A DNA stretch of 64,000 nt from contig NZ_CP009517.1 in assembly GCF_000970305.1 (NCBI RefSeq), positions 4,216,001 to 4,280,000 of the forward strand, given 5' to 3'. Below the pieces are notes generated by a model that ran no database searches, was not told the origin of the DNA, and saw nothing but the letters and a program-made list of their open reading frames with translations. The position numbers and the translations under genes are program-made. This document shows positions 18,895 through 50,962 of this stretch, piece after piece. Every line of letters begins with the position of its first letter. Position 1 is the first letter of the stretch. The stretch comes from Methanosarcina barkeri 3 (GTDB lineage: Archaea; Halobacteriota; Methanosarcinia; Methanosarcinales; Methanosarcinaceae).

Positions 18895-19340
18895 GGATTT
18901 TCCTCCGCAATTATGAGCTGCAATAATTTCTGGTGGCTCTTGCCTGCCTGGGCATATCGCTCAAGAGTGAAAAGCAATTACTATAAATGATAATATAATA
19001 GCATAAATAACAAATTTCATACGCTTAACGAATTTCACACATTTGGGCAACAACTACATAAGAGTAAAGATTACATAAACATAACGCATTATTTTTTCAC
19101 TGTTAACATTTAAAGTACATTTAAAGTAATCTGCCGAATTTGTTTAATCCGTACTTTAGTTTCGTCCTGTTATACTGACTCGATGTATTATATTGATTTG
19201 TCTTAGATTGATTTGTCTTAGATTGATTTGTCTTAGATTGATTTGTCTTAGATTGATTTGTCTTAGATTGATTTGTCTTATTATATTGACCCGTCGTGTT
19301 ATATTAATTCGTTTATATAATAATTCTCTTTACATCCTGA
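18895..19340. other. Promoter region of the A2 run plus repeat array
   Basis: The first 200 bases hold the presumed promoter of the A2 transcript, with several AT-rich TATA-like stretches near 18980-19015. The rest holds the 15-bp array listed separately. No gene is seen. Confidence 0.5.
19192..19280. repeat. 15-bp tandem repeat, six copies
   Basis: Six head-to-tail copies of attgatttgtcttag, the last one missing its final base, with no other mismatch. Neighbouring sequence (tatattgacccgtcg) looks like decayed further copies. The short open frame across it is an artefact. Confidence 0.95.
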
Positions 19341-26655: not shown

Positions 26656-27400
26656 AGGGATTCTCCTTTTAGTTTAGACTTTATTCTGAAGTCTGGTTTT
26701 CTATAGTATACTTGATCAATCTTAATATTATCTTTTAAGCATATAGATATTTTGGAAATACCTCTATTATGGACAATTACTTACATATAGTTTTTTATTT
26801 CTATATAGTAAACTTTTGTTAATACGCAACCTAAAAAGTAGAAAGATAGGAATTTAATTTGTTCTACTGGTTTCATGATATAGTGAAACCAGAGCAATAA
26901 AAAAGCCCAATAATGAAATACAGATATTCAGAGCTTGTCTCTCAAGTGTTCACCAGGGTTAAGGAACTTTTTTGGATTTTGTTTGAGTTTATGAGTTTCA
27001 TAAAGAAGCTAATCGTTGATTTTACTTTATGCAAGTTCCATGTTTGGAAATTTCAGCGAAAATTGAGATAAGCAAGAAAGGTTTAAAAGATTTAAGTGAA
27101 TGTCAATCTGACATATTTTTAAAACGAAATTGTACTGGTTGTGTCCATAAATTGTTGGTTAAGTCCAACAAAGACATGTAAATTCACCTTCTTTGCCTGG
27201 ATTTGAGAGTTGGCTTTCTACTTGAATTTGCAGTAACTGACCAATGGCCATCAAATTTTTAACTTAAGATCCAGGTTGACTTTGTCTTATTTTCTTTTAT
27301 GCCTACTGTAAAGCATAATTTACCACTATCAAACCTTGCTTAAACTTGTTTTATATTCACTACAAAACGTAGAAAAACTGACTCTCGCAATGCGGATTTC
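26656..27400. other. Spacer, probably decayed sequence
   Basis: About 745 bases with no intact gene. The stretch 26930-27330 is less AT-rich than its surroundings and has short open segments interrupted by stops, as expected of a decayed gene or insertion sequence. I could not match it to a family. Confidence 0.45.
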
Positions 27401-27541
27401 TCATTCGTAAATCATGATTGAATCAAGCCTTACAGTACCTATCTTTGTCCAGTACCTACATACAGGACAATATTGAGTTTCACTGCCTTGACTCATTTTA
27501 AGTATTGAATGACACTCTGGACAAACTTTTAAACTTTTTAT
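27401..27541 (-). CDS. Small zinc-ribbon protein, possible AUA start
   Basis: A 46-codon frame whose product has C-P-E-C-H (about residues 8-12) and Y-C-P-V-C-R-Y (24-30), a clean four-cysteine zinc ribbon. It is followed by a short beta-rich end (V-R-L-D-S-I-M-I-Y-E). It is too short for usual gene calls and lacks ATG, GTG or TTG before the first CxxC. A ggagg lies seven bases before an in-frame ATA at 27541-27539. The spacing and the intact ribbon argue that it is a real small gene, starting at AUA or recently disabled there. Function unknown. Confidence 0.6.
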   Translation of the reverse strand: MKSLKVCPECHSILKMSQGSETQYCPVCRYWTKIGTVRLDSIMIYE

Positions 27542-27572
27542 AAATAAACCTCCATAGAAAACTGATATTCAT

Positions 27573-27605
27573 CTGAATAGAATCTGAATAGAATCTGAAT
27601 AGAAT
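27573..27605. repeat. Short 11-bp repeat, three copies
   Basis: Three head-to-tail copies of an 11-bp unit, tgaatagaatc, just upstream of the zinc-ribbon gene. The rest of 27542-28163 is AT-rich and shows no gene. Confidence 0.65.
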
Positions 27606-28163
27606 TTAAATAAGGGATTTAAGAACCAGTAGAAATCTTATAATTCAGGTAATATTACAAAGATCATAGTATTTTCAAATATGCTACTGAAGTGGATTTC
27701 CTTCAGTTATTGTCCTTATTAAATTTGTGAGCTGCAGGGGAAGAGATTCCCACAGCCCATAGAGATCTGGGTGAAGGTACTGGAAACCTCCTAAGTCGTA
27801 AATAGAATAGATTTATTATATATTTTTTGGATATATTCAATATAGTAATAAAGTAGACTAATTAGTTTTAAAGTGAATTTTTCTTACCATAAAGAACCAC
27901 GCACCTGAGATACAAACTCAAGCACACTTGGCTTTATGAACAACTTGGGACTTTAGACCGTTGACAGTTAATGCTATTGGTTTCTCAGTTAAACCGCTTA
28001 GTTCTATCAAATATAAGCTACAAGAATTACCGTCTTAGAGAAGAAAGGAGATATTTCAGAGCAATAATCGGAAAAAAGAATAGAATAACAAATTAAAAAT
28101 ACAAATTAAGAGATTTTACGAATTAAGGATTACATCTCCATTTATAAGTTAAACACTTAAAAT

Positions 28164-29216
28164 TTAGATCTTTACATTCATGTTCATTGAAGCTTCTGCG
28201 ATATCGCCACTATATTCGGCTATTCTCCGGAGACTCTCCAGAATCATACTAATTTCAACGTTACCTGTATTTCCTAACTTCCGGGACTCCAGAGAAACTC
28301 CAAATTGAGAAATACTTTTGGCTTCCTCAACAGTTTTATTTATCGTCTGCAAGTCTTCTTGCGCTATAGAATCGATTGAACTCTTGAACACGTTAATGGA
28401 AAGTTCAGCCATCTTAAAAATCGGATTATCAGGGCTAACTGCCGAATCAATTCTTTGGGTATTTACAGCTATTTTGACTGCATGATCTCCTATTCTCTCA
28501 ATTATTTTTGTAATCAGTCTGTACTCCAGGCATTCTTGCGGATGTCGGATTCCTATTGTGTCAGAGAGTTCGATATCTTCAATTGCAGCGTTAAGTTGGC
28601 GGACAGAAAGAAAATAGAAACGGTCTACATCATCATCTCTCTGGATAATATCTTCAGCAATTCCCACATTGTAATCTCTAAGAGCTTTCATAGAATCTTC
28701 AAGCATGGAACGTACAAGACCATACATGTTTTTAATTACTCTTCTAAGGAATAGATCACTGTAATTAAGAAGGCATTGAAAGACCAGCTCTGTCCGTGAT
28801 TCTTCTATAAGTTCAAGCCCTATCAGTTTCTGACGTACCGAGTCCTTGATAAACTTGCGGTCATGAGCACTGAAACCTTTCACGGAAGTCAGTTTTATAA
28901 TGTTATAACCTGCAAGATAATTAGAAATAAGAATTCTGAAGTTATTTTCTGCACTGTCTGAGTGACTATATTCTATCATAGCCTTAAGATCAGAACGTTC
29001 CGTTGAGACTGCACTGTAAGAGATATGTAAGGTTTTGTTAGGCATGGGTGTAAGAGTAAGCGCGTCTCCGACTTCAATCCCTGTATCATGAATCCATTTT
29101 ATGGGGAGAGAAACAATATAGGTAGAGTTCCCGGTAAACTGAACTTTTCGTTGATCCTTAGTAATAGAATGATCCCCCTGGGGTGGTGAATAAACTTTAA
29201 GAATTTGTATGGACAA
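28164..29216 (-). CDS. phoU: PhoU-family phosphate regulator with N-terminal AbrB-like domain
   Basis: A 350-residue protein. Residues 20-60 resemble a SpoVT/AbrB swapped-hairpin DNA-binding domain (R-K-V-Q-F-T-G-N-S-T-Y-I-V-S-L-P). Two PhoU-type helical domains follow, with D-D-D-V-D-R-F-Y-F and R-I-G-D-H-A-V-K-I-A, the metal-binding helices of the family. Such archaeal PhoU proteins are thought to control phosphate uptake. The frame opens at TTG (29216) without a ribosome-binding site. A TATA-like cttataag lies about 20 bases upstream, so the transcript may be nearly leaderless. The start is uncertain. No pst genes adjoin it. Confidence 0.83.
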   Translation of the reverse strand: MSIQILKVYSPPQGDHSITKDQRKVQFTGNSTYIVSLPIKWIHDTGIEVGDALTLTPMPNKTLHISYSAVSTERSDLKAMIEYSHSDSAENNFRILISNYLAGYNIIKLTSVKGFSAHDRKFIKDSVRQKLIGLELIEESRTELVFQCLLNYSDLFLRRVIKNMYGLVRSMLEDSMKALRDYNVGIAEDIIQRDDDVDRFYFLSVRQLNAAIEDIELSDTIGIRHPQECLEYRLITKIIERIGDHAVKIAVNTQRIDSAVSPDNPIFKMAELSINVFKSSIDSIAQEDLQTINKTVEEAKSISQFGVSLESRKLGNTGNVEISMILESLRRIAEYSGDIAEASMNMNVKI

Positions 29217-29471
29217 TTGTAATCATAAAGGTTTCTTATAAGTAAGATACTAAAAAAGAATAAAAGTTTCGCTGACATATCCTGCTGCAAGCATCAGAAT
29301 GTTCTATTGAAATAAGGAATTTTGTCCTTAATTCTTTTTCCCTGAAAATGATTTAGTTATAGAAAATCGAGTGATTTTATGATTACATTTATCATTGAGT
29401 TGAGATTAAGAGGAAGGAGTGAGTATTTTTCAAACACTGGGCCTCATATTTATCTAACTTTAAATATATAA

Positions 29472-30289
29472 CTATATTATACTATCAACAACTTTTTCTT
29501 TTTCTCCTTTAGAGAAAACTCTATACACTTTCAGGTGCCAGCGCTTGCAATCGGATTCTGGTGCATCAACTTCAATCAAGTTGTAACACTGAGATATTTT
29601 TCCACGAACTTTGGAAGAACAAACAGTCCCAGCACTGATTACAAGCATGTCATTTAATCTCCAGACCCAGGGAATGTGCCAGTGTCCACAGAGCACAAGG
29701 TTCACACCTGAACGGTCCAGGAGTTCCAGAACATCGCCTGCATCTACAAGTACATTATTTCCTCTGCCGGTTTTGGGAATTGGGATAAGGTGATGATGAA
29801 GGGCAAAAACTTTGAAACTATTTACTGAAAAAGTGTTTTCTATCCAGGTGTAATTTTCCCTTCCGATGTGTCCTTCGTCAAGTTCCGGTTGGGAAGAATT
29901 TTACCCCGTTGTCGCATTCTTGAATTATAAAAGCTTCCGATGTGTCCTTCGTCAAGTTCCGGTTGGGAAGAGTCAATCCCTACTATAGTGACCTCTCCAA
30001 AGTGCCCAGAGGTTGATCTGGTTTTGAAAAGGTCCTCAAAAAAGAGGTAACCGGCATTTCTGGAGTCATGGTTCCCCGGAACTATTATCTTGTTTTTGCA
30101 TTCAATCCTGTCAATAAATTTCTTTGCACCATTATACTTGGCTGCAAGCCCGTTTTCTGTCAGGTCACCGGTGATTACTATAATATCAGGAGAGCTCCGG
30201 TTTATGTTTTCAAGCATGGAATCTGCAATCTCAGGCATATAATATGCCTCTGAGAAATGAATGTCTGAAATATGTACTATTCTTTTAAT
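29472..30289 (-). pseudogene. Calcineurin-like metallophosphoesterase, interrupted by a 74-bp repeat-bounded insertion
   Basis: The front part has V-H-I-S-D-I-H-F (metal DxH), G-D-L-T (GD) and G-N-H-D-S-R (GNHD). The back part has A-L-H-H-H (about 29790) and L-C-G-H-W-H (GHxH). All five metallophosphoesterase motifs are present but in two frames. The break is a 38-bp direct repeat (29860-29897 and 29934-29971) with 36 bases of unrelated sequence between. Removing one copy plus the filler, 74 bp, rejoins the frames exactly: G-H-I-G then R-E-N-Y-T-W-I-E. The family-typical start K-R-I-V-H-I-S-D is preceded by ATT at 30289 in place of ATG, with gagg at normal spacing. Confidence 0.85.
29860..29971. 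repeat. 38-bp direct repeats flanking a 36-bp filler
   Basis: Exact copies at 29860-29897 and 29934-29971, both starting cttccgatgtgtccttcgtc, separated by 36 bp. They interrupt the metallophosphoesterase gene. Confidence 0.95.
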
Positions 30290-31240
30290 TTCGATTCCTC
30301 TGTCTTACTCATTCGCGTTTCAACATTTGGGACTATAATTCATAGTTTATATATAGTTATTCGATTTAGACAATATATAAGAACAGATGCATTGTATTAA
30401 TGAGAAAAGAATATTTAATATATAGTACAACATATTTTTCAGCTGAAGGTATTTATTCACTAAGTATTCAATCGGTTGGTTGAACCTGTGTTTAGAAATA
30501 ACCTGCGAGAAAACAGAAATTTATATCTTGGGAGTTAAGATGCAAAACGCGCTTAAGTGGAAGTCCAGAAGATGCCAACTTATAGATAATGGTCATAAAA
30601 AAGAAAATGAAGAGATTTGGGCTACTGGCTCACTGTAATAGAAGTAACATGGGAGATTTAAGCAAACTTCTTACTGATAACATGTTTTTGGGTCTGTTTC
30701 TATGTTCTGGTCTGTTCATAGGTTCTGGTTTATTTTTATGTTTTGATCTGTCCATAGATTTTGGTCCCACGTTACTAATCAATAATATTCTTTTCATACA
30801 TATATATTTTTCGATTTTCTATGTTATAATCTCATGAAGTATTGTTTTTCAAAACAAAAACAATGTTTTCAGATTTTTCTTTCAGATATTTTGGAAAATG
30901 TTTTTATCCTCCAAATGATATATTTTTTTGAAAAAGATACCTAAAAACCCTGTGTTTAACTAATATATCTGTCTCATTCATAGTGATTAAATAAATAATT
31001 CTTCTGATAAATCTTATTTCTTCGGCTAATTTTTTATTTTTAGTTAGTTTCTCGCTTTATATTTAGTAAATACATTGATTTAATTAATCAATTTACTTTT
31101 TCATGAATATACATAATAGAAAGAAAAAAATATGTTTTTGGCGAAATGTCTTTATAGTCATTTTGCATTCTTTTAATTGAATACAATTCATAACTTATTA
31201 CATTGCAAAAAATTTCTGAATAAAATGGTCGTGCTTGTTT
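30290..31240. other. Long AT-rich spacer with a doubtful small frame
   Basis: A plus-strand frame at 30589-30837 would give an 82-residue hydrophobic peptide with repeated F-L-C-S-G-L-F-I-G-S-G-L-F, but it has no ribosome-binding site and no recognisable family. A related stretch with the words tgttctgatcccacg occurs at 33778. I read this as decayed repetitive sequence rather than a gene. Confidence 0.4.
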
Positions 31241-32239
31241 ATGCAAGGAAAAAACATAATCGATGCTAAAATAACGATAAGTACTGAGGTTGCTGAAAAT
31301 CTTCTTCAGGAAGGATGGAAGAAAGTGGATCTACATGTACACTCTTCCTGCTCCTACGATGTACCTCCTGTTCAGACAATGCATCCTGCAGTACTTTTTA
31401 AAAAAGCAAGATCTCAAGGCCTTGATTTTGTGACTTTTACAGACCATGATACTGTCAAAGCTTATGATTTGCTTGGTTGGGATAAAGAAAAACTGGTTCC
31501 AGGAGTTGAGATTTCAATTAGAGATCCTGAATATATAGGACACACTATTCACGTTAACGTTTTTGAACTGGACTCGGAAGAATTTAAGGAACTTGAATTG
31601 ATTGCAAATCAGGAGCATGACTTCAAAAGCTTTATCCGCTATTTAAAGGCTCACGATCTCCCCCATATATACAACCATCCGTTTCAGTTTTTTAACGAAG
31701 GAAGTCCTAATCTCTGGGCGATACCTGAACTTATAAAACAGTTTCCGGTTGTCGAATATAATATGCAGAACTTAGCGGAAAAAAACCTTATTACTGCAAC
31801 ACTTGCCAGAAAATACGGAAAAGGATTAGTTGCAACTACAGATAGTCATACAGGAGGTATGGGAGCTGTCTACACCCTTGCAAAAGGGGAAACATTTAGG
31901 GAATATTTTGAAAATATTAAAAAAGGAAGGTCATATATTGTAGTTGAAGGAGGAACTAAGAGATATCTTACAAAAGAATTAATCTCCTGGGTTGAACTTG
32001 TTTTTTCTATGGATAAGCAGTTACGAGAGGACATGAACTTTACCACAAATATTCAGAGCTTTGATAGAATTATAAGTCTTATTGCAAACGAGAAAATTAG
32101 AGAATTTCCTAGACTTAACAACCTTGCAATGAAGTTTTTCCGGAATTTCTCCAGATCAGGACTTCCTGTATATATGTACATGAGAACTGAAAAACCTCTA
32201 GTTTCCAAAATAGAAAAGGTTTTGAATCAAATGTTATGA
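31241..32239 (+). CDS. PHP-domain metal-dependent phosphoesterase
   Basis: A 332-residue protein with a PHP domain. The metal ligands are visible: V-D-L-H-V-H-S-S-C-S-Y-D (His32, His34), F-T-D-H-D-T, P-G-V-E-I-S, Y-N-H-P-F and T-T-D-S-H-T-G-G. PHP proteins hydrolyse phosphoesters; the substrate here is unknown. About 90 C-terminal residues extend beyond the PHP core. The ATG at 31241 is chosen over the TTG at 31235, though neither has a good ribosome-binding site. It is convergent with the glycosyltransferase gene, and such a pair could serve glycan or lipid synthesis; that is a guess. Confidence 0.83.
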   Translation: MQGKNIIDAKITISTEVAENLLQEGWKKVDLHVHSSCSYDVPPVQTMHPAVLFKKARSQGLDFVTFTDHDTVKAYDLLGWDKEKLVPGVEISIRDPEYIGHTIHVNVFELDSEEFKELELIANQEHDFKSFIRYLKAHDLPHIYNHPFQFFNEGSPNLWAIPELIKQFPVVEYNMQNLAEKNLITATLARKYGKGLVATTDSHTGGMGAVYTLAKGETFREYFENIKKGRSYIVVEGGTKRYLTKELISWVELVFSMDKQLREDMNFTTNIQSFDRIISLIANEKIREFPRLNNLAMKFFRNFSRSGLPVYMYMRTEKPLVSKIEKVLNQML

Positions 32240-32411
32240 GCTGTTAGATTTTGTATTCCTATTAAGATCATATCCTCAAAGAGATAAAAAACTGACAAAA
32301 AGATATTATGATTATCAGTTAAAGTTAATGAATATTGTTTATTCCAGATAATTCTATAGAACCTTTATTTTCTGCTTTTTTGGTTCGGATCATTAATTTC
32401 TCTTTAATTCT

Positions 32412-33554
32412 TCATTTCACTAAACCTTCCTTTAACCTTTCTTCAAGAAATATTCTTACAGTTGCAGGTCCGTCAAGTTCCTCTGCGAGTTCTCTCAATT
32501 TTCTGGTCTTTTGGCAGTATTCTTCCTTCTCCAGAATTCCTCTAATGCAAGCAAGAATAGTTTCCGGCTCTGCAAGGTAGCTCATTTTCTTTCCGTATCC
32601 TTCTTCTTCAAGTACAGTTGCGTTATTTTCCTGTTCTATATGCTTTTTGTCCGGAAAAGAAAGTACAGGGAGTCCGAAAGAAAGGCTTTCAAGGATTGTT
32701 CCATGTCCTCCTGCAGTAATTACCAGATCAGAGCCTTTGTAATAAGGAAAAGGATTTTCCGTAAAACCTGTAAACTCAACATTTTCCGGGATTTTTGAAA
32801 ACTGATTGGGATCTATTCCGGGTCCTGAAATAAAGGTATAGTAAATACTTTGATCCATTTTTGCAGCCTCAAGTACATTCCTGAATATGGTTGCTCTGTA
32901 TCCGAAAGCGCCAACGGTTGAAAGGACGTTGGGGTGCTGGAGGGTTTTTGATTCGACTTCACTATACTTGTACCTTATAAGGGGGCCGCTGAAAAAAATG
33001 GTTCTATTAATACTTTTTTTGAAATTGAAGTTTTTTCGGTTTATAGAGTATGGAGGAGGAAAATCAGGCACAATGATGCCATCTACGCTTCGGAAGATAT
33101 AATTATAAAAACTCTTAATTAGTTTTCCTGCTACTGTCACCAGAAAATCCTGTTTCTGAAAAAACTCCACCATATTGAACTGGTGGCCAATAAAATACAC
33201 AGGAGTCTTTTTTGTCTGTGCAGCAAGGATACCTGTATAGTAACCATCCGAAAGTACAATATCAGGTTTTAGTTCTTCAATCAACCTCAAAAGTTTCCTG
33301 AATTTTGAAGGAGAAGTATTTTTTAGGGTTTCTTTAATGGATTTTTTGATATCAAAAATTCCTGACTCTCCAACTAGCTTCATTTCAGGGGGGATATCAT
33401 ATACCTTATACCCTGTTTTTTCTACCAATTTTTTTGAGTACCCATATGCCCCAAAGTATACCTCATGCCTTGCAGTCAGAAACTCTTTTCCCAAAGCAAG
33501 GCAGCGACTTGTGTGTCCAAGCCCTTCTCCGCACATGAAAAGTAAGACTTTCAT
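32412..33554 (-). CDS. GT28/MurG-like glycosyltransferase
   Basis: A 380-residue two-domain GT-B enzyme. The N-terminal nucleotide-acceptor loop is M-C-G-E-G-L-G-H-T-S-R (8-18), as in archaeal glycosyltransferases related to MurG and UDP-glucuronosyltransferases. The C-terminal sugar-nucleotide site is I-T-A-G-G-H-G-T-I-L-E with P-D-K-K-H-I-E-Q-E-N-N-A following. It probably transfers a sugar from a UDP-sugar to a lipid or cell-surface acceptor on the inner membrane face. A gggattgg precedes the ATG. Confidence 0.85.
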   Translation of the reverse strand: MKVLLFMCGEGLGHTSRCLALGKEFLTARHEVYFGAYGYSKKLVEKTGYKVYDIPPEMKLVGESGIFDIKKSIKETLKNTSPSKFRKLLRLIEELKPDIVLSDGYYTGILAAQTKKTPVYFIGHQFNMVEFFQKQDFLVTVAGKLIKSFYNYIFRSVDGIIVPDFPPPYSINRKNFNFKKSINRTIFFSGPLIRYKYSEVESKTLQHPNVLSTVGAFGYRATIFRNVLEAAKMDQSIYYTFISGPGIDPNQFSKIPENVEFTGFTENPFPYYKGSDLVITAGGHGTILESLSFGLPVLSFPDKKHIEQENNATVLEEEGYGKKMSYLAEPETILACIRGILEKEEYCQKTRKLRELAEELDGPATVRIFLEERLKEGLVK

Positions 33555-33926
33555 TTTATTCCAATCCCAGTATATACTTTTTTTCCATTACACTAACCAT
33601 TAATCTATGAGCTTGATATTTTTCAAAAACAATTTGCGTAAAAAAATCTATTCTGTACGAAGCAAGTATTATTTTCAAAAATAGAGTGAAGAAGTTTAGA
33701 GATGAAATCCAATTTAAAAGAGAGTATCATAGAAAATTTGGATTTAATAGATGTTGACATGCCTTCTGGCTTGTTTGTGTGTTCTGATCCCACGCTACTA
33801 AAGAATTAATGCCCATTTACTATATATAACTTTTCTTCCTATATATGCACATCAGTAAAGATAGTATTTTATCCCGAAAGTATATTTATTCGTTAAAATT
33901 TTGGTCCACAGATAAAAAGTATTTTT

Positions 33927-34118
33927 AAGCATCCATCTAAGCATCCATCTAAGCATTCATCTAAGCATTCATCTAAGCATCCATCTAAACATCCATCTAA
34001 GCATCCATCTAAGCATCCATCTAAGCATTCATCTAAGCATTCATCTAAGCATCCATCTAAACATCCATCTAAGCATCCATCTAAGCATCCATCTAAGCAT
34101 CCATCTAAGCATCCATCT
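33927..34118. repeat. 12-bp minisatellite, 16 copies, with 72-bp higher-order structure
   Basis: Sixteen perfect-length 12-bp units, mostly aagcatccatct (C), with variants aagcattcatct (T) and aaacatccatct (A). The order is CCTTCA CCTTCA CCCC, so a six-unit block of 72 bp is itself duplicated. One frame would code K-H-P-S repeats but has no start codon. Confidence 0.97.
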
Positions 34119-34656
34119 AATACTCTGCAGCAGTCTCTGCAGATAATCTCATTCTGGCTCCTGGTTTAAGTAATATACTCAACAGGGTGATGTCTGGATA
34201 TGTTTAGTTTACTTTTTGTTATTTGTTAAACACAGGGCTTTAGTTTAACTGTGGTATTGTTGTTACTTTAATAAGAATATTAATTAATTGTGCATGAATT
34301 TACCAAAAGTCTTGTAAATATAACTTGCTTGTTATCTTTTTTGTTCACCGTAAAACAGAATGAGGAGCCATTACTAATTTTGTCTAATATCAAAAAATTG
34401 TGTTCTCTATTCTGAGTATTTCAATTCCAGACTGAAGTTTTGTTAGGCTGTAGCAGTATTCTTTTGTATACAACTTATGGAAAACTATCAAGTGTATAAA
34501 TGAGTATATAATCTAAATATTTTAATAAATATCTGGTACAGCAAAATAGTGTCACATAGTCACCTATCCTAAATATTGAGTATGAACCTACATATGTTCT
34601 ATATGTGAAAGATTCAAATACAGAAGGCCTCATTTTTAAAATTGGAACTTGCATTG

Positions 34657-50526: not shown

Positions 50527-50962
50527 TCCTGTTAAACTCCAAAATTACACTTAAAGCTTCATGACTTCCTAAGTCCTGTGCTCCTTTTATTGTAGCTGCT
50601 GATATTTAATCTTTTTAAAATTATCTTTTATCTAGCCTTTAATTCTGTAGACACAATAAAATAACAAAATAAGTGAGGTATAAGGAGAGCAGGAACAGAA
50701 GGGAAAATTGGAAAAGGAAATTAGGATAGGAAAACTAAGAAAGGAAAACTAAGAAAGGAAAACTAAGAAAGGAAAACTAAGAAAGGAAAACTAAGAAAGG
50801 AAAACTAAGAAAGGAAAACTAAGAAAGGAAAACTAAGAAAGAAAAATGAGATTTTCTGAAATTTCAAATTGCTTTTTCTCATTCTTTTCTGATTCTTTAA
50901 TAATTTCAGATTATTTTCCTTTTCTTTAATAGTTTTCAGTTTGTTTTTTCCTTTTCGAATTA
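50527..50962. other. Spacer between mptG and gpmI with minisatellite
   Basis: Non-coding. It holds the 14-bp array listed separately; no other gene is seen. Confidence 0.6.
50728..50839. repeat. 14-bp tandem repeat, eight copies
   Basis: Eight exact copies of aggaaaactaagaa in a row. On one strand the array is purely purine apart from ct steps. Confidence 0.97.

Follow-up and report, generated by a model that had tools for sequence, protein, structure and literature searches.

In CRISPR adaptation, a prespacer is attached by Cas1-Cas2 to the two 5' ends of a repeat, one on each strand, and the repeat is doubled as the gaps are filled. Natural chromosomal cases of off-target spacer integration are few to our knowledge; Nivala and colleagues reportedly listed putative ones in Yersinia pestis and Sulfolobus islandicus. 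Such integration has been reported in vitro (PMC6895254) and upon over-expression of Cas1-Cas2, where it took the form of non-canonical integration into chromosomes (Nivala, Shipman and Church, 2018), and in Sulfolobus a regulator has been proposed to restrain integration outside arrays (PMC9456107). We found that in Methanosarcina barkeri 3 a metallophosphoesterase gene copy, located in the window analyzed here (a 64,000-nt stretch, positions 4,216,001-4,280,000 of a one-contig genome of 4,560,446 bases), is broken by a 74-bp insertion, which is probably the scar of off-target spacer integration into a housekeeping gene by the organism's own type I-B Cas1-Cas2(-Cas4). As in the cases of the 2018 study, a repeat-length duplication surrounds a spacer-length insert outside arrays, in a genome that encodes Cas1-Cas2. 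In contrast to these cases, the M. barkeri 3 insert is found in a type I-B methanogen and in a protein gene, its exact empty site is retained in the same genome, and its site bears no significant likeness to the place where spacers are natively integrated. Ectopic acquisition within arrays (PMC7999890, PMC8047081) is likewise integration away from the leader, yet it takes place at repeats inside an array, whereas the M. barkeri 3 insert sits in a non-CRISPR gene.

With the organism's own type I-B arrays the insert shares repeat and spacer lengths, but the duplicated sequence is that of the gene and unrelated to the CRISPR repeat. Casposons (Cas1-solo transposons) are alike in employing a Cas1-type integrase that makes target duplications, but differ in carrying genes; a casposon was rejected as the source, since no cas1-solo was found and the single Cas1 of the genome resides in the I-B locus. 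Target duplications of casposons measure 14-15 bp, and those of ordinary transposons are far shorter than 37-38 bp. A literature search of partial depth returned no report of a scar of this type in Methanosarcina.

The interrupted gene encodes a calcineurin-like phosphoesterase (Pfam Metallophos, PF00149) on the minus strand and has genes for PhoU-domain and PHP-domain proteins as neighbors. Its two 38-bp direct repeats are 100% identical, lie 74 bp apart from start to start and enclose a filler that resembles neither the repeat copies nor their surroundings (Table 1). The 5' part of the gene runs from 30289 through both repeat copies and the filler to a stop at 29840 (PF00149 E-value of 3.2e-9, compared to 1.2e-16 for the intact copy described below), and the added length of 74 bp, with its remainder of 2 on division by 3, shifts the reading frame. 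The repeat pair around unrelated DNA and the inactivation of a metallophosphoesterase by 74 bp had both been proposed in a first-pass annotation of this DNA, and both are borne out by the present analysis. As the bases flanking the two copies mismatch at either end, the duplication is not longer than 38 bp; a 37-bp duplication extended by one chance matching base and a 38-bp duplication are equally possible.

Table 1. Elements of the interrupted phosphoesterase gene, in window coordinates.
Feature	Coordinates	Strand	Remarks
38-bp direct repeat, copy 1 (putative target-site duplication)	29860..29897		37-bp register 29860-29896 with inverted 5-bp ends CTTCC/GGAAG
Filler of 36 bp, without relation to the gene (putative off-target spacer)	29898..29933		37 bp in the case of a 37-bp duplication
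38-bp direct repeat, copy 2	29934..29971		
Broken metallophosphoesterase gene, 5' part	29840..30289	-	149 codons; inferred ATT start at 30289; PF00149 on 29840-30238
Broken metallophosphoesterase gene, 3' part	29472..29900	-	Other frame; C-terminal HH and GHWH motifs

The empty site is preserved in a second gene copy of the same genome (at about 232.2-233.2 kb), the open frame of which comprises 247 codons. The window segments 29800-29897 and 29934-30030 together match genome positions 232669-232825 at 100%, with a single target copy and without the filler, and apart from this difference the two gene copies are identical across 231 bases around the insert. On one side of it they remain 98% identical over 425 bases, as they are in the downstream half of the gene, and on the other 90% identical over 588 bases, a stretch that includes diverged upstream DNA; the farther flanks of the two copies do not match each other. 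On either side of the insertion site, the draft genome of Methanosarcina sp. UBA11020 is collinear with window positions 27,001-33,000; therefore, the broken copy appears from this synteny to occupy the older place and the intact copy to be the extra one. In this closest relative, a gap of 200 N (L006:6222-6421) falls exactly on the insertion site, and about 300 bases from it there is another, of 140 N. We considered, and dismissed, that a relative (L006/L081) carries an insertion of its own here, the 200-N gap being unread sequence. Owing to this gap, the nearest relative does not bound the age of the event.

The gene search yielded matches in 25 of the 29 other Methanosarcina genomes. When the 38-bp target was sought at up to 11 substitutions in 28 loci of relatives, it was present once in 25 of them, absent from three (one of which is an unread N gap, while two are too different or partial) and duplicated in none; among the 28, three pairs seem to be a single place counted two times, while some loci represent a second gene of the genus with 72-76% identity. 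Thus, the earlier statement that the gene is whole without the 74 bp is confirmed both by the second copy and by the relatives. A comparison of the kind suggested in the first-pass annotation, made here with relatives, offered no support for a reversible switch, as no locus with two copies was encountered.

The machinery for such an event is encoded in the genome. Its one Cas1 lies inside a type I-B locus with the gene order cas8b-cas7b-cas5b-cas3b-cas6b-cas1b-cas2b-cas4b, assigned by model matches and followed by array 1 from position 3,729,889. The cas1, cas2 and cas4 genes look intact and, judging from gene content, the locus is apparently complete. Array 2 (200,363-205,460) is placed on the minus strand, opposite to array 1, and the two have the leader end in common. 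Its 66 repeats are of one uniform variant, in which position 19 is C rather than T, and the lone Cas1 is distant from this array, in the I-B locus. The native repeat is 37 bp long. Spacers of 36 bp are the commonest (53/162), and 37-bp spacers account for 29/162 (36/99 and 19/99 in array 1, 17/63 and 10/63 in array 2, respectively), counts that omit three longer intervals of 845, 108 and 328 bp. The dimensions of the insert, 38 + 36 or 37 + 37 bp with a period of 74, fall inside this native repeat-spacer range. We also considered that the insert is itself a piece of a CRISPR array, and rejected it: the duplicated stretch is gene sequence, and its best local alignment to the repeat spans 8 columns.

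We infer that Cas1-Cas2 was the agent. Within the phosphoesterase gene, a prespacer of approximately 36-37 bp would have been attached to the two 5' ends of a 37-38 bp stretch, one per strand, in the way that a CRISPR array normally receives it at its first repeat, but at the wrong site. Gap filling would then have doubled the 37-38 bp stretch, leaving a repeat-spacer-repeat unit outside any array and a frameshift. Joining and gap filling at a wrong site would thus produce exactly the anatomy of the insert. In favor of such a scar are the length of the duplication (37-38 bp against a native repeat of 37 bp), the length of the insert (36-37 bp against a native spacer mode of 36), the empty site with a single target copy in the gene's own paralogue as well as in relatives, and the presence of Cas1 and Cas2 in the genome. 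Against it stand the 1-bp discrepancy between the native repeat (37 bp) and the exact duplication (38 bp), and the lack of a protospacer for the filler among the viral contigs, phages and plasmids searched. As for fitness, we infer that the loss of the gene would be tolerable because of the intact second copy.

The signals at the cut sites either fail to help this reading or speak against it. Likeness to the native leader-repeat junction is not significant, the best of four register and orientation choices giving an uncorrected P = 0.028 (positions -8..+5); when both ends of the insertion site were compared with the native repeat ends, the likeness reached P = 0.047. The first bases attacked on the two strands would be C/C in the 37-bp register from 29860, T/T in the other 37-bp register and C/T for a 38-bp duplication, while those of the native repeat are A and G. 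According to PMC6895254, type II off-target sites in vitro resemble the leader-repeat junction, and the attacked base is preferably G, then A. The bases at the insert do not fit this preference. The 37-bp register 29860-29896 possesses perfect 5-bp inverted ends (CTTCC/GGAAG), a property with a frequency of 0.0028 among 453,229 background 37-mers, although it was noticed afterwards and in one of three registers. A two-fold symmetric integrase would explain such ends; the native repeat is devoid of them.

The filler may be foreign. With up to 3 mismatches allowed, there is one occurrence in its own genome and none in the 29 other genomes of the genus, and among 185 genomes of the order it is found only in its own. 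An origin by copying from another place in the genome is therefore ruled out at this threshold. A stray native spacer was likewise discarded, as none of the 10-mers of the filler recurs in the 165 intervals parsed from the two arrays. Searches of viral contigs with the exact filler, with sub-patterns of 20-22 bases and with codon-degenerate patterns of its three open frames retrieved no match, and those of phages and plasmids retrieved matches at chance level only. This says little about its origin, since the phage collection offered no match below E 0.6 for the whole of native array 1 either.

The main rival to integration is a generic repair accident, in which 38 bp were duplicated and 36 bp of filler captured at a staggered break or through template switching, so that the agreement with CRISPR lengths would be coincidental. 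We regard it as possible but rather unlikely. The genome is rich in local duplications, with 449 exact pairs of at least 25 bp separated by at least 10 bp (outside arrays, in 48% of the genome), and the absence of significant likeness between the cut sites and the leader-repeat junction speaks for such an accident, too. We scanned 2,202,000 bases in 108 stretches, i.e., the same 48% of the genome, for exact pairs with periods of 30-300, arrays excluded. There are 281 pairs with repeats of at least 30 bp, gaps of at least 10 bp and periods up to 300, nearly all of which were classified by our filter as tandem arrays or repeated coding units. Nine passed the filter for non-periodic repeats with unrelated filler, its thresholds having been set after the raw list was known, and only the phosphoesterase insert combines a repeat of 35-40 bp with a gap of 32-40 bp. 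Without the filter, eight pairs have these dimensions, the other seven being periodic; several look-alikes in the raw scan turned out to be tandem arrays or coding repeats. The insert is, accordingly, the sole non-tandem pair of CRISPR dimensions in the scanned 48% of the genome, where no second event of this kind was detected. The remaining eight filtered pairs measure (repeat/gap) 95/108, 77/62, 37/29, 36/50, 34/107, 30/65, 30/17 and 30/12 bp, and those of 37/29, 36/50 and 34/107 bp are examples of the few other non-tandem pairs to which a repair accident may appeal. None of the eight has both lengths at once in the native CRISPR range, as the phosphoesterase insert has; by our reading, two of them are duplicated tRNA-like genes and others dispersed elements or coding repeats. 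Both this exclusive fit and the lack of a source for the filler in the genome, at up to 3 mismatches, speak against a repair accident.

The first-pass annotation had left the choice between a one-off mutation and a phase-variation switch, in which some cells of a population would lose the 74 bp by recombination between the 38-bp repeats and so regain an active gene. The repeats are indeed exact, and their loss would yield the frame of the intact copy. A switch, however, also requires that the insert be regained, while the filler is unique among the 185 genomes and the two-copy form was met in 0/28 relatives' loci; in addition, the presence of an intact copy probably leaves the switching of the other one with little effect. 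We thus consider a switch very unlikely, and the one-off mutation fits the data, with a CRISPR integrase, which the annotation had not mentioned, as its likely agent. An assembly or sequencing artefact appears still more improbable. Two near-identical gene copies could confuse an assembly, and the UBA11020 draft has its unread gap at the very same place, but the M. barkeri 3 genome is a single contig. Nor is the insert a misjoin with an array, as its filler is present just once in the genome and has no 10-mer in common with the spacers parsed.

Integration of a spacer at the wrong site by the native I-B machinery is, for these reasons, the explanation that we favor. The M. barkeri 3 insert makes it directly testable what CRISPR adaptation costs in mutations and how new arrays are born, because the empty site, the machinery and the struck protein gene are united in one genome. 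One could speculate further that CRISPR adaptation acts in methanogens as a natural insertional mutagen, whose scars can be precisely lost by recombination between the duplications and hence represent revertible knock-outs, but we find this generalization doubtful.

Several additional features of the genome and the gene family were observed. The non-tandem pair with a 36-bp repeat and a 50-bp gap is situated at L193:17661-17782 (genome 1.64-1.66 Mb). Tandem arrays with units of 12, 14 and 15 bp are numerous in the window (33926-34120, 50713-50846, 19184-19280 and others), in keeping with a genome rich in local duplication. Near the far end of array 1, the 845-bp interval between repeats (3737069-3737913) contains a gene of the Fic/DOC family (PF02661, 1.8e-10), preceded by an ORF of 83 codons that may encode its antitoxin. 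In most phosphoesterase loci (window 30289, minus strand; L106, L004, L082-L104) no in-frame ATG, GTG or TTG is found before the first metal motif, and in nearly all loci inspected ATT, or ATC in L004/L083, stands a short distance past an AGAGGA-like ribosome-binding site, which suggests a conserved non-standard start codon.
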